Positions 8,635-33,832 of a stretch of DNA of 49,930 nt are shown piece after piece. The translations under genes were made by a program, and so were the position numbers. Numbering within the stretch: position 1 is the stretch's first letter; the number at the start of each line of letters is the position of its first letter. This DNA comes from Euzebyales bacterium (GTDB taxonomy: Bacteria; Actinomycetota; Nitriliruptoria; Euzebyales; Egibacteraceae), in assembly GCA_013695145.1 (NCBI GenBank), contig JACDBB010000041.1, positions 1 to 49,930 on the forward strand, written 5' to 3'. The notes under the pieces were generated by a model, which ran no database searches, was not told the DNA's origin, and saw nothing but the letters and a program-made list of their open reading frames with translations.

Positions 8635-9732
8635 ATGCCCCGTCAGATCTCCCAACGATCGCTTGACGAGTTCTATGCTGATCTGGGACGCAACGATCTC
8701 GTGCCGCTCTGGCCGATCTCCAACGAGTTGATGCCGGTCACTCCCAGGCCCGACACGGTTGCCCACCTCTGGCGCTGGAAGACGTTGCGAGCGCTGGCGG
8801 AGCGCGCCGGGGAACTCGTCTCCATCGACCGTGGTGGCGACCGACGGGTCCTTGCGCTGGCCAACCCGGGGCTCGCGGGAGCCCCCTACGCGTCCTCGAC
8901 ACTGTGGGGCGCCGTCCAGTACCTCGGGCCGCGGGAGTCGGCGCCCGGCCACCGGCACACGCCCGGCGCCATCCGGTTCGTGCTGGAAGGCGATGGCGTC
9001 TGGACCACCGTGGACGGTGACGCGTGCGACATGCACCCGGGCGACCTCGTCCTCACCCCTTCATGGTGCTGGCACGATCACAGCAACCCGACCGATCAGC
9101 CCATGATCTGGTTCGATGGGCTCGACCTGCCGACGATGAGCGCCCTCGACGCCATCTTCTTCGAGGCCTACGAGCCCGACGAACTGCAGCCGGTCCAAGG
9201 ACACAACATCTCCGAGCGCATCTGGGGCGGCCGCGCCATCCTGCCTCGAGACCGTGACTCGCAGCTGACCTCCAGCTCACCGCTGCTGGTCTACCGGTGG
9301 CATGACGCGGACACCGCAGTCGACGGACTGCTGCGGGAAGAAGGCAGCTCCCTGGCCACGCTGCAGTACACGAACCCACTCACCGGCGGTCCGGCGCTGC
9401 CGACGCTCGCGTGCGAGATGCACCGCCTGCTCCCCGGTGCGCGCAGCCGCCCCTACCGCAAGACCGGGAGCTCCGTGTACGTCGTCTATCGCGGCGCGGG
9501 CTGCTCGATCATCGATGGGCAGCGCTTCGAGTGGAGTCACGGCGACACGTTCGTCGTGCCGTCCTGGTCGACGCTGGAGCACGACGCGACGGAGCCATCC
9601 GATCTGTTCGCCATCAGCGATCGACCGATCCTCGAGGCGCTGCACGTGTTCCGCGACGAATGGTTGGACACTCCGCAGGAAGTCACCGGGACGTTCATGC
9701 CGAAGGAATCCCGGCACGAGCTTCGACCGTGA
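8635..9732 (+). CDS. Gentisate 1,2-dioxygenase-type cupin ring-cleavage dioxygenase (copy 1)
   Basis: A 365-residue bicupin of the gentisate / salicylate / 1-hydroxy-2-naphthoate dioxygenase family, which opens the ring of (di)hydroxybenzoates with Fe(II) and O2. Cupin motif 1, APGHRHTPGAIRFVLEG, gives ligands H106 and H108; motif 2, GDLVLTPSWCWHDHSN, gives the third histidine (H147 or H149). The C-terminal cupin (about 275-340) lacks the metal histidines, as is normal. ATG 8635 follows a GAGGTGG ribosome binding site. It begins an operon with an FAH hydrolase (4-base overlap) and a DinB protein, which supports gentisate or a substituted gentisate as substrate. It is clearly paralogous to the gene at 32723. 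Confidence 0.85.
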   Translation: MPRQISQRSLDEFYADLGRNDLVPLWPISNELMPVTPRPDTVAHLWRWKTLRALAERAGELVSIDRGGDRRVLALANPGLAGAPYASSTLWGAVQYLGPRESAPGHRHTPGAIRFVLEGDGVWTTVDGDACDMHPGDLVLTPSWCWHDHSNPTDQPMIWFDGLDLPTMSALDAIFFEAYEPDELQPVQGHNISERIWGGRAILPRDRDSQLTSSSPLLVYRWHDADTAVDGLLREEGSSLATLQYTNPLTGGPALPTLACEMHRLLPGARSRPYRKTGSSVYVVYRGAGCSIIDGQRFEWSHGDTFVVPSWSTLEHDATEPSDLFAISDRPILEALHVFRDEWLDTPQEVTGTFMPKESRHELRP

Positions 9733-10568
9733 GGCTGGTCACGCTGCGCACGCCCGCAGGCACCCGTGCCGGACGGGTCCATGGGGACGGGATCGTCGAG
9801 CTTCCGTTCGACGACCTCGACGCGCTCCTGCGCTCGGGGACCGACTGGCGGGACAGAGCCGGCGCCGATGGGCCGCGCCACCCGCTGGATGGCGCCGACC
9901 TCGCCCCCCCGGTCCGCGCCCCCCGCAAGATCGTCTGTCTCGGTCTCAACTATCGCGCCCACATTCTCGAGATGGGCCGCGCGCTGCCGGCCCATCCGAC
10001 GCTGTTTGCCAAGTTCGCGCGGGCGCTGATCGGCCCCTCCGACTCGATAGCCCTGCCACCGGAGTCGGCGACGGTCGACTGGGAGGCGGAACTCGGGCTG
10101 GTCATCGGCCGCTCGGTTCGACGGGCGAGCGAAGCGCAGGCGGTCGCGGCCATCGCCGGCTACACAGTCGCGAACGACGTGTCGATGCGCGACTGGCAGT
10201 TGCGCACCGACGAGTGGCTGCAGGGCAAGACCTTCGAGGCATCCACGCCGGTGGGCCCCGCGCTGGTCACCCCGGACGAGCTGGACGGCGACCCCGGCGC
10301 ACCCGATCTCGAGATCTCCTGCGACGTCGATGGCGAGGTGCTGCAGCGCGCGCGCACCGGGGACCTGCTCTTCAATCCAGGCGACATCGTGGCGTACGTG
10401 AGCACCCTGGTGACGCTCGAGCCGGGCGATCTCATCCTCACCGGCACCCCCGGGGGCGTCGGGGCCGGGCGCGACCCCAAGGTGTTCCTCCGACCCGGGC
10501 AGACGGTCCGCACCACCGTGGAAGGTCTCGGGGAGCTGGTCAATCGCTGCGAGGAGGAACGAGTGTGA
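9729..10568 (+). CDS. Fumarylacetoacetate hydrolase family protein (fumarylpyruvate hydrolase candidate)
   Basis: A 279-residue FAH-superfamily enzyme; family members cleave C-C bonds of acylpyruvates with Mg2+ or Mn2+. Family blocks: KIVCLGLNYRAHILEMG, LFAKFARALIGPSD, VDWEAELGLVIGR (metal-binding Glu pair), ANDVSMRDWQ (Asp ligand), QGKTFEASTPVGPALV and LILTGTPGGVGAGRDP. GTG 9729 overlaps the dioxygenase stop (GTGA). In gentisate catabolism the FAH member splits fumarylpyruvate into fumarate and pyruvate; that role fits the operon but is inferred. Confidence 0.87.
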   Translation: MRLVTLRTPAGTRAGRVHGDGIVELPFDDLDALLRSGTDWRDRAGADGPRHPLDGADLAPPVRAPRKIVCLGLNYRAHILEMGRALPAHPTLFAKFARALIGPSDSIALPPESATVDWEAELGLVIGRSVRRASEAQAVAAIAGYTVANDVSMRDWQLRTDEWLQGKTFEASTPVGPALVTPDELDGDPGAPDLEISCDVDGEVLQRARTGDLLFNPGDIVAYVSTLVTLEPGDLILTGTPGGVGAGRDPKVFLRPGQTVRTTVEGLGELVNRCEEERV

Positions 10569-11068
10569 CCACACCCACCGAGCTGGCCGGGACCGCCGAC
10601 GAGATCATCGGCCGGAACCGGCAGCTAGACCACCGGCTCCGCGACCTGGTGGCGCAGGCGCCCGCCGATCGGCTGCGCGCGGATCCGGGAGGCGGCGAGT
10701 GGTCGCTGGCCGAGAACCTCGGTCACATCGCCGAGTTCCCTCGCTTCTTCGGACGCGAGCTGGCACTCGTGCTGGACCAGCCCGATGTTGACGTCGAGGT
10801 CGGACGGACGCACGAGCATCCCGAGCGCAACGAGGCCGTCGCCGCCGCTGCGGGCAAGGGCCACGAGCAGCTGGCGCGGGAGGTCGATGCCGCCCTAGCG
10901 GAGCTCGGCGGGGTCCTCGACCGGCTCACGGACCACGATCTACAGCGCGTCGTCAGCAACCGGAAGTACGGGCCGGAGTCCCTGGCCACCTACCTGCAGC
11001 GCTACGTCCTCGACCACAAGGCCGCCCACATCGATCAGCTCGGTCGGACGTTCGCTGCTCTCGGCTGA
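10565..11068 (+). CDS. DinB-fold protein, candidate maleylpyruvate isomerase
   Basis: A 167-residue four-helix DinB/YfiT-like protein. The usual features are the helix GEWSLAENLGHIAEFPRFFGREL with a metal His, and the C-terminal YVLDHKAAHIDQLGRTFAAL with paired His. GTG 10565 overlaps the FAH stop, so it belongs to the same operon. The mycothiol-dependent maleylpyruvate isomerase of actinobacterial gentisate pathways belongs to this superfamily, and that step is the one missing between the two upstream enzymes. The sequence is short for that enzyme (usually about 240 aa), so the assignment rests on context. Confidence 0.68.
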   Translation: MTTPTELAGTADEIIGRNRQLDHRLRDLVAQAPADRLRADPGGGEWSLAENLGHIAEFPRFFGRELALVLDQPDVDVEVGRTHEHPERNEAVAAAAGKGHEQLAREVDAALAELGGVLDRLTDHDLQRVVSNRKYGPESLATYLQRYVLDHKAAHIDQLGRTFAALG

Positions 11069-32722: not shown

Positions 32723-33832
32723 ATGGCCGATCAAGCCGCTGACCGGGCGACCCAGGAAGCGCTGGACGGCTTCTACGGCGACCTGAAGGCCAACGACCTG
32801 GCTCCGTTGTGGCCCATCTCCGACGAGCTGATGCCCGCCGCGCCCACGCCGGCCACGCTGCCGTACCTGTGGCGCTGGAAGATGCTGCGCCGGCTGGCGG
32901 AGCGAGCGGGGGAGCTCATCACCATCGAACGGGGCGGCGACCGACGGGTGCTGTCACTCGCCAACCCCGGCCTGGGTGGTGCCCCCTACGCGTCGTCCAC
33001 GCTGTGGGGCGCGGCGCAGTACCTCGGCCCGCGCGAGTCCGCGCCGGGCCATCGCCACACGCCGGCGGCGATCCGCTTCGTCGTCGAGGGCGACGGCGTC
33101 TGGACCACCGTCAACGGCGACGCTTGCGACATGCACTCCGGCGACCTGATCCTGACGCCGTCGATGCACTGGCACGACCACAGCAACCCGACCGACCACG
33201 CGATGATCTGGTTCGACGGGCTGGATCTGCCCACGATGAAGGCGCTCGACGCCATCTTCTTCGAGCCCTACCAGCCCGACGAGCTGCAGCCGGTGGCCGG
33301 TCACAACCTCTCCGAGCGGCTCTGGGGCGGCCGCGCGACGCTGCCGCGCGACCACGGCCACGACCGTCCGTCGTCACCGCTGCTGGTGTACCGCTGGATC
33401 GACGCCGACCGATCGCTCGAGGCGCTGCTCGCGGAGCGGGGCGGCCCACTGGTCACCCTCGAGTACACCAACCCCCTCACGGGCGGACCGGCGCTGCCCA
33501 CCATGGCGTGCGAGATGCACCGCATCGTCCCCGGTGGTCTCACCAGGCCGTACCGCAAGGTGGGCAGCTCGGTCTGCGTCGTGTATCGCGGCGCCGGCCA
33601 CTCGGTCATCGACGGTCAGCGCTTCGACTGGAGCCACGGCGACATGTTCGTGGTCCCGTCCTGGTCGACCGTCGAGCACGAGGCCAGCGAGCCCTCGGAC
33701 CTGTTCGCCATCAGCGATCGGCCGATCCTCGAGGCGCTCCACGTCTTCCGCGACGAGTGGCTCGACGCGCCGCAGGACGTCACCGCCACGTTCGAGGCCA
33801 AGGAACCTCAGACCCAGGACTCAGTCGCATGA
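32723..33832 (+). CDS. Gentisate 1,2-dioxygenase-type cupin dioxygenase (copy 2)
   Basis: A 369-residue paralogue of the 8635-9732 product, very similar along its whole length. Fe(II) ligands are H110 and H112 in GHRHTPAAIRF and H151/H153 in SMHWHDHSN; next to the motif Trp-Cys-Trp of copy 1 is changed to Met-His-Trp, so specificity may differ. It begins with ATG after TGGAGG and lies 96 bases after the binding-protein gene, with its own operator. The following FAH gene is only a stub. Confidence 0.86.
   Translation: MADQAADRATQEALDGFYGDLKANDLAPLWPISDELMPAAPTPATLPYLWRWKMLRRLAERAGELITIERGGDRRVLSLANPGLGGAPYASSTLWGAAQYLGPRESAPGHRHTPAAIRFVVEGDGVWTTVNGDACDMHSGDLILTPSMHWHDHSNPTDHAMIWFDGLDLPTMKALDAIFFEPYQPDELQPVAGHNLSERLWGGRATLPRDHGHDRPSSPLLVYRWIDADRSLEALLAERGGPLVTLEYTNPLTGGPALPTMACEMHRIVPGGLTRPYRKVGSSVCVVYRGAGHSVIDGQRFDWSHGDMFVVPSWSTVEHEASEPSDLFAISDRPILEALHVFRDEWLDAPQDVTATFEAKEPQTQDSVA

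Follow-up and report, generated by a model that had tools for sequence, protein, structure and literature searches.

A YfiT-type DinB protein as the likely maleylpyruvate isomerase of a gentisate-type operon in an uncultured actinobacterium

Here, we describe a compact gentisate-type operon on contig JACDBB010000041.1 of a Euzebyales bacterium (GCA_013695145.1), a draft metagenome-assembled genome (MAG) of an uncultured actinobacterium; the window, i.e., the whole stretch of DNA that was analysed, spans 49,930 nucleotides. The operon combines genes for a gentisate 1,2-dioxygenase (GDO)-type enzyme, an FAH-family hydrolase, and a short DinB-fold protein. We consider it likely that these three genes constitute a complete lower gentisate pathway in which a distant DinB paralogue of the YfiT type replaces the canonical mycothiol-dependent maleylpyruvate isomerase (MDMPI). 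A preliminary description of this DNA had named the DinB protein as the likely isomerase of the pathway; the function is retained here as likely from context, but not the lineage, as the protein would be a replacement from another branch of the superfamily.

A DinB_2/YfiT-type protein in the isomerase position

The operon comprises the following features.

8635 to 9732, forward strand: GDO1, bicupin gentisate 1,2-dioxygenase-type ring-cleavage enzyme (365 amino acids, ATG start)
9729 to 10568, forward strand: FAH-family hydrolase of the fumarylpyruvate hydrolase (NagK) type (279 amino acids, GTG start)
10551 to 10557, forward strand: Shine-Dalgarno-like GAGGAGG, 7 bases upstream of the GTG start of the DinB gene
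10565 to 11068, forward strand: DinB_2/YfiT-type protein, proposed thiol-dependent maleylpyruvate isomerase (167 amino acids, GTG start)
10724 to 10726, forward strand: codon of His54, putative first metal ligand, aligned with YfiT His67
11015 to 11029, forward strand: codons of His151 to His155 (HxxxH), putative second and third metal ligands, aligned with YfiT His160 and His164

The three reading frames and the 4-base overlaps that join them were confirmed exactly as first described, with GTGA at both junctions (GDO1/FAH at 9729-9732, FAH/DinB at 10565-10568), and all three frames show a coding-type bias in GC content at third codon positions. The assigned families were likewise recovered by Pfam, with two Cupin_2 domains in GDO1, FAA_hydrolase in the second protein, and DinB_2 in the third.

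The gene order of the operon, GDO and FAH followed by a third gene, is that of actinobacterial gentisate operons; in Rhodococcus the order is nagI-nagK-nagL (PMC3937715). The named relatives of the window genome are Euzebyaceae and Nitriliruptorales MAGs, which places the host in class Nitriliruptoria of the Actinomycetota. Canonical MDMPI directly follows the GDO-FAH cassette in G034 and G039, two genomes of the same class as the window genome, and the order GDO-FAH-MDMPI is also found in Pseudarthrobacter and Glutamicibacter plasmids and in genomes G353 and G112. Searches with two MDMPI proteins were positive in all four of these MDMPI-operon genomes and found no MDMPI in any of the five genomes bearing the DinB protein (G000, G002, G005, G015, G108). 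This distribution upholds the isomerase position previously proposed for the DinB protein, as MDMPI fills the slot in sister genomes and is missing wherever the DinB protein is present. The window genome encodes eight other MDMPI_N proteins, none of which joins the MDMPI clade in our tree, and a search of this genome for maiA as an alternative isomerase found none.

Judged by its sequence, the DinB protein of the window is a member of the DinB_2/YfiT (bacillithiol-transferase) lineage, outside the known MDMPI lineage. It scores above the gathering cut-offs of both DinB_2 (PF12867; 49.7 bits, cut-off 24.8) and MDMPI_N (PF11716; 30.3 bits, cut-off 24.2), yet lower with the latter, and reaches 18.8 bits with TIGR03083, under the curated cut-off of 50, whereas MDMPIs of GDO-FAH operons score 79-139 bits with this model. 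In a 35-row tree, the deep forks of which have moderate support only, ten MDMPI rows form a clade (support 98/99) that excludes the window protein; the other half of the tree contains the window protein, its relatives from G002, G005, G108, and Alicyclobacillus, FAH-linked proteins, and YfiT/BH0186. Profile alignment and multiple alignment with YfiT (1rxq) place His54, His151, and His155 on the three reported metal histidines of that enzyme (PMC5815605). The metal columns of the multiple alignment read H/H/H in the window protein and H/E/H in six MDMPI rows. The ligands of MDMPI are presumably His52, Glu144, and His148, positions that agree with the 2nsf sequence. The three metal histidines of the preliminary description are hence present in the window protein, as in YfiT, but do not apply to known MDMPI, the site of which is His/Glu/His. 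A comparison of nine relatives revealed W46, H54, E57, G80, R81, R88, A91, L103, G136, H151, H155, and Q158 as invariant. The protein ends at residue 167, just after the last bundle helix, and thus cannot accommodate the C-terminal domain of MDMPI. A truncated MDMPI was considered and is ruled out by the metal ligands, the invariant residues, and the position in the tree, and what had been envisaged as a "minimal" form of the known isomerase turns out to belong to a different DinB lineage.

An AlphaFold2 model computed from a three-row alignment (pLDDT 90.5) adopts the four-helix-bundle DinB fold, and its top Foldseek matches include MDMPI 2nsf (TM-score 0.70, E 5.8e-5) and YfiT 1rxq (TM-score 0.72). 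The predicted fold thus matches both enzymes equally well, and the fold match suggests that the three histidines cluster in space. With phmmer, the single window protein found only one chance match in the PDB, a designed protein (E 0.27); 1rxq and 2rd9 were reached only by a profile of nine relatives.

The best PDB matches of GDO1 are the salicylate/gentisate dioxygenase structures 2phd and 3nst (E ~1e-94). Iron-ligand and substrate residues of GDO and salicylate dioxygenase (SDO) are listed in PMC11264262 and PMC10306065, and GDO1 is identical at Arg83, Trp104, Gln108, His119, His121, Ala125, Arg127, His160, His162, Trp172, and Asp174 (SDO numbering). The position of SDO Gly106 is occupied by Ala in GDO1 and in every MDMPI-linked GDO examined. 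Given this complete active site, and with Ala in place of SDO Gly106, gentisate is most likely the substrate of GDO1, which shares 45% identity with MDMPI-linked GDOs and 37-38% with some others. The hydrolase scores 223.8 bits with FAA_hydrolase (PF01557), and its best PDB match is 6j57/6j5x (206 bits), which we take to be the fumarylpyruvate hydrolase of C. glutamicum; 6jvv, labelled maleylpyruvate hydrolase, reaches 92 bits. It is 53-58% identical to the FAHs of four MDMPI operons and at most 34% identical to those of maiA operons. Because it is closest to the FAHs of MDMPI operons and far from 6jvv, it probably requires the trans isomer, fumarylpyruvate, from which we infer that the pathway needs an isomerase. 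The gentisate-type character first attributed to the operon therefore agrees with both the retained GDO active-site residues and the kind of hydrolase.

In the chemistry that we infer, GDO1 would cleave the ring of gentisate to give maleylpyruvate. With His54, His151, and His155 holding a metal, the DinB protein would bind and activate a low-molecular-weight thiol, likeliest mycothiol; the metal-bound thiolate would attack maleylpyruvate at its cis double bond, and bond rotation followed by elimination of the thiol would yield fumarylpyruvate, which the FAH protein would split into fumarate and pyruvate. Arg81 and Arg88 are invariant in window-type DinB proteins and absent at the aligned YfiT positions. 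Hypothetically, they could contact the carboxylates of the substrate and so stand in for Arg222 of MDMPI, which we take to lie in the C-terminal domain of that enzyme. Mycothiol is probably the thiol used, because the window genome encodes homologues of MshA (428 bits) and MshC (408 bits; two CysS-like genes, separate from it, reach 305 and 221 bits), both homologues scoring somewhat under the curated cut-offs. Mycothiol is also given as the cofactor of MDMPI (Feng 2006, as cited in PMC5815605). The two homologues argue against a change of cofactor in this host, and the "cofactor-different" isomerase suggested at first thus finds no support in the window genome.

Distribution and genomic surroundings

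DinB proteins of the window type are rare, being found in 4 of 66 genomes of the class (a fifth match is marginal), in each case near GDO and/or FAH. The full order GDO-FAH-DinB, again joined by 4-base overlaps, is found in G002 as well; partial cassettes are present in G108 (GDO-DinB), G005 (FAH-DinB), and, as a truncated locus, G015 (GDO-DinB or FAH-DinB). Among 396 sampled Actinomycetota genomes, 12 of the 14 best DinB matches with surroundings read adjoin an FAH or GDO gene, frequently with 4-base overlaps; the significance of FAH adjacency depends on an assumed background rate of about 10 or fewer FAH genes among about 3,500 genes per genome. The arrangement is not due to chance, as order and overlaps recur in other genomes.

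An independent case outside Actinomycetota was provided by the sole DinB match among 72,556 plasmids, on a plasmid of Alicyclobacillus dauci (Bacillota) with the order 3-hydroxybenzoate 6-monooxygenase-GDO-FAH-DinB. Use of bacillithiol by this relative is plausible. The FAH frame of this locus (L084, 2990-4459) is broken by frameshifts in the record, and the C-terminal FAH part reads directly into the DinB frame, no stop codon intervening, which suggests an FAH-DinB fusion or sequencing errors. A search of a viral collection found no DinB relative, and a scan of named genomes gave two loci only. The GH1-like, EntE-like, and DinB neighbours in G015 (L007, 3641-6320) each apparently lack an internal stretch, which could reflect decay of the locus or an artefact of assembly; as its DinB and both genes preceding GDO seem internally incomplete, G015 was given no part in the main argument.

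Upstream of GDO1 lie genes that we take, from reading their translations, to be rpsP, rimM, trmD, rplS, and lepB, together with a DUF2469 gene (Pfam). The gene downstream of DinB, of the SMP-30/gluconolactonase family (Pfam), is convergent, and the operon therefore appears to consist of exactly the GDO1, FAH, and DinB genes; promoter or terminator signals that support or exclude these limits were not found. The window encodes one further dioxygenase.

32723 to 33832, forward strand: GDO2, second dioxygenase, 75-77% identical to GDO1

GDO2 is 90% identical to the GDO of G002. It neighbours genes for NMT1-type ABC importers and for an MBL-fold protein; neither FAH nor DinB adjoins it, and it may share the downstream enzymes of the GDO1 operon. 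Two GDO genes are near each other in G108 as well.

Alternative explanations and wider meaning

Several points weigh against a gentisate pathway with DinB as its isomerase. GDO1 stays under the cut-offs of both NCBIfam equivalog models for the dioxygenase, with 300.6 bits against 442.1 for TIGR02272 (gentisate_1_2), and no gentisate-making gene was recognised near the operon within the window. The window DinB lacks both the C-terminal domain and the arginine reported essential in MDMPI. The DinB of G108 sits among other ring-cleavage genes, and most of the distant short DinBs pair with a different FAH subfamily and no GDO nearby, so that the shared function of short DinBs may be broader than maleylpyruvate isomerisation. 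Finally, as the MAG is about 94% complete, the lack of another isomerase is not proven.

The alternative that survives best, although we regard it as unlikely, is that the DinB protein acts as a thiol S-transferase, trapping or detoxifying a reactive product of ring cleavage, isomerisation being spontaneous, unnecessary, or catalyzed by an unrecognised enzyme. The YfiT/DinB_2 lineage is indeed known for thiol transfer and not for isomerisation (PMC5815605, PMC10950700), and the metal site matches YfiT-type enzymes. However, the protein has the same operon position as MDMPI, the two are mutually exclusive, no other known isomerase was found in the window genome, and the DinB gene is translationally coupled to that of the hydrolase consuming the isomerised product.

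Slightly less probable again is that the substrate of the operon is a substituted or fused-ring 2-hydroxyaryl acid instead of gentisate and that the DinB protein isomerises the resulting product, e.g., benzalpyruvate or a substituted maleylpyruvate. The modest identity of GDO1 to other GDOs would fit this proposal, as would the GDO-DinB pair of G108 beside genes for an extradiol dioxygenase, a DapA-type aldolase, and an aldehyde dehydrogenase, with similar partners at L108 and L109. Yet GDO1 retains the gentisate 5-hydroxyl contacts Trp104 and Asp174 as well as the Ala at the Gly106 position, and the hydrolase is nearest to those of gentisate pathways. The G108 locus itself (L068, 6751-11786), in which GDO-DinB is followed by catechol 2,3-dioxygenase-like, DapA-like aldolase, and aldehyde dehydrogenase genes, resembles part of a bicyclic-aromatic pathway needing another thiol-dependent isomerisation.

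Least credible is a direct maleylpyruvate hydrolase accompanied by DinB as a non-catalytic or regulatory passenger: metal-less MDMPI relatives do adjoin GDO in some maiA-bearing Alphaproteobacteria, and a DinB-fold neighbour of GDO thus need not be an isomerase, but the window protein retains all metal ligands and the invariant residues common to Bacillota relatives, and its FAH partner is far from the solved hydrolase 6jvv. The alphaproteobacterial proteins (L079, 6041-6601; L080, 6050-6820; L081, 6056-6637), described as "maleylpyruvate isomerase N-terminal domain" proteins, directly follow GDO, lack the MDMPI metal ligands, and share their cluster with maiA; they resemble non-catalytic relatives of MDMPI that were retained beside GDO. 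The MDMPI of an actinobacterial GDO-fumarylpyruvate hydrolase operon in G353 (L103, 3274-3831) apparently has Arg where the last metal histidine would be expected, and it clusters with these metal-less proteins.

FAH-DinB neighbours also occur in distant Actinomycetota without GDO, often with 4-base overlaps (L069, L070, L072-L077), and most of these FAHs belong to a subfamily with a motif like VRDFYAFEQHVRTAR. The FAH-adjacent short DinBs have the signature W-x7-H-x2-E ... GR ... R ... HxxxH-x2-Q. It is a tentative proposal, which we put at somewhat below even, that those of Actinomycetota and Bacillota are general thiol- and metal-dependent cis-trans isomerases that prepare FAH substrates, use the mycothiol or bacillithiol of their host, and originated separately from MDMPI. 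This broader family is a more novel lead than the window operon alone.

The natural substrates of YfiT/bacillithiol-transferase-type DinB proteins are largely unknown, as stated for B. subtilis (PMC5815605). A DinB gene locked into a gentisate operon, in the isomerase slot, names a testable substrate for this family (330 nm assay). If the replacement of MDMPI is true, members of one superfamily with different metal ligands were recruited to thiol-dependent maleylpyruvate isomerisation on at least two occasions, and many short DinB genes adjoining FAH genes could receive a functional annotation. A YfiT-type DinB as the isomerase of a gentisate operon was not found described in the open-access literature, most subscription journals being outside the scope of our search.

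Comparison with known systems

MDMPI (NCgl2918/NagL, 2nsf) and the window DinB share the superfamily fold, the position as third gene after GDO and fumarylpyruvate hydrolase, and a mycothiol-making host. They differ in length (~241 versus 167 amino acids), in metal ligands (H/E/H versus H/H/H), in the C-terminal domain and Arg222, which the window protein lacks, and in falling into separate clades.

YfiT/BstA (STL superfamily, 1rxq, 2rd9) resembles the window DinB in its four-helix bundle (TM-score 0.72), its three metal histidines at the same positions, its similar length, and its place on the same side of the tree. However, identity is ~16%, the YfiT equivalog model does not recognise the window protein, the invariant Gly80-Arg81 and Arg88 of the window type are missing in YfiT, and the window-type DinBs are tied to gentisate or FAH genes. 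The mycothiol S-transferase Rv0443 (8f5v, PF04978) likewise has a DinB fold with an inter-helix metal site and a mycothiol-making host, but two His and one Asp serve as its ligands (PMC10950700) where the window protein has three His, the TM-score is 0.64, and the window protein reaches 15 bits with NF047843, the cut-off of which is 170.

At the level of the operon, nagI-nagK-nagL of Rhodococcus TFB and the C. glutamicum genes provide the same set of GDO, fumarylpyruvate hydrolase, and DinB-superfamily isomerase, and it is the FAHs of operons of this type that are 53-58% identical to the window FAH. The isomerase there is canonical MDMPI, in contrast to the YfiT-type DinB of the window, and GDO1 falls into another GDO clade (45% identity).
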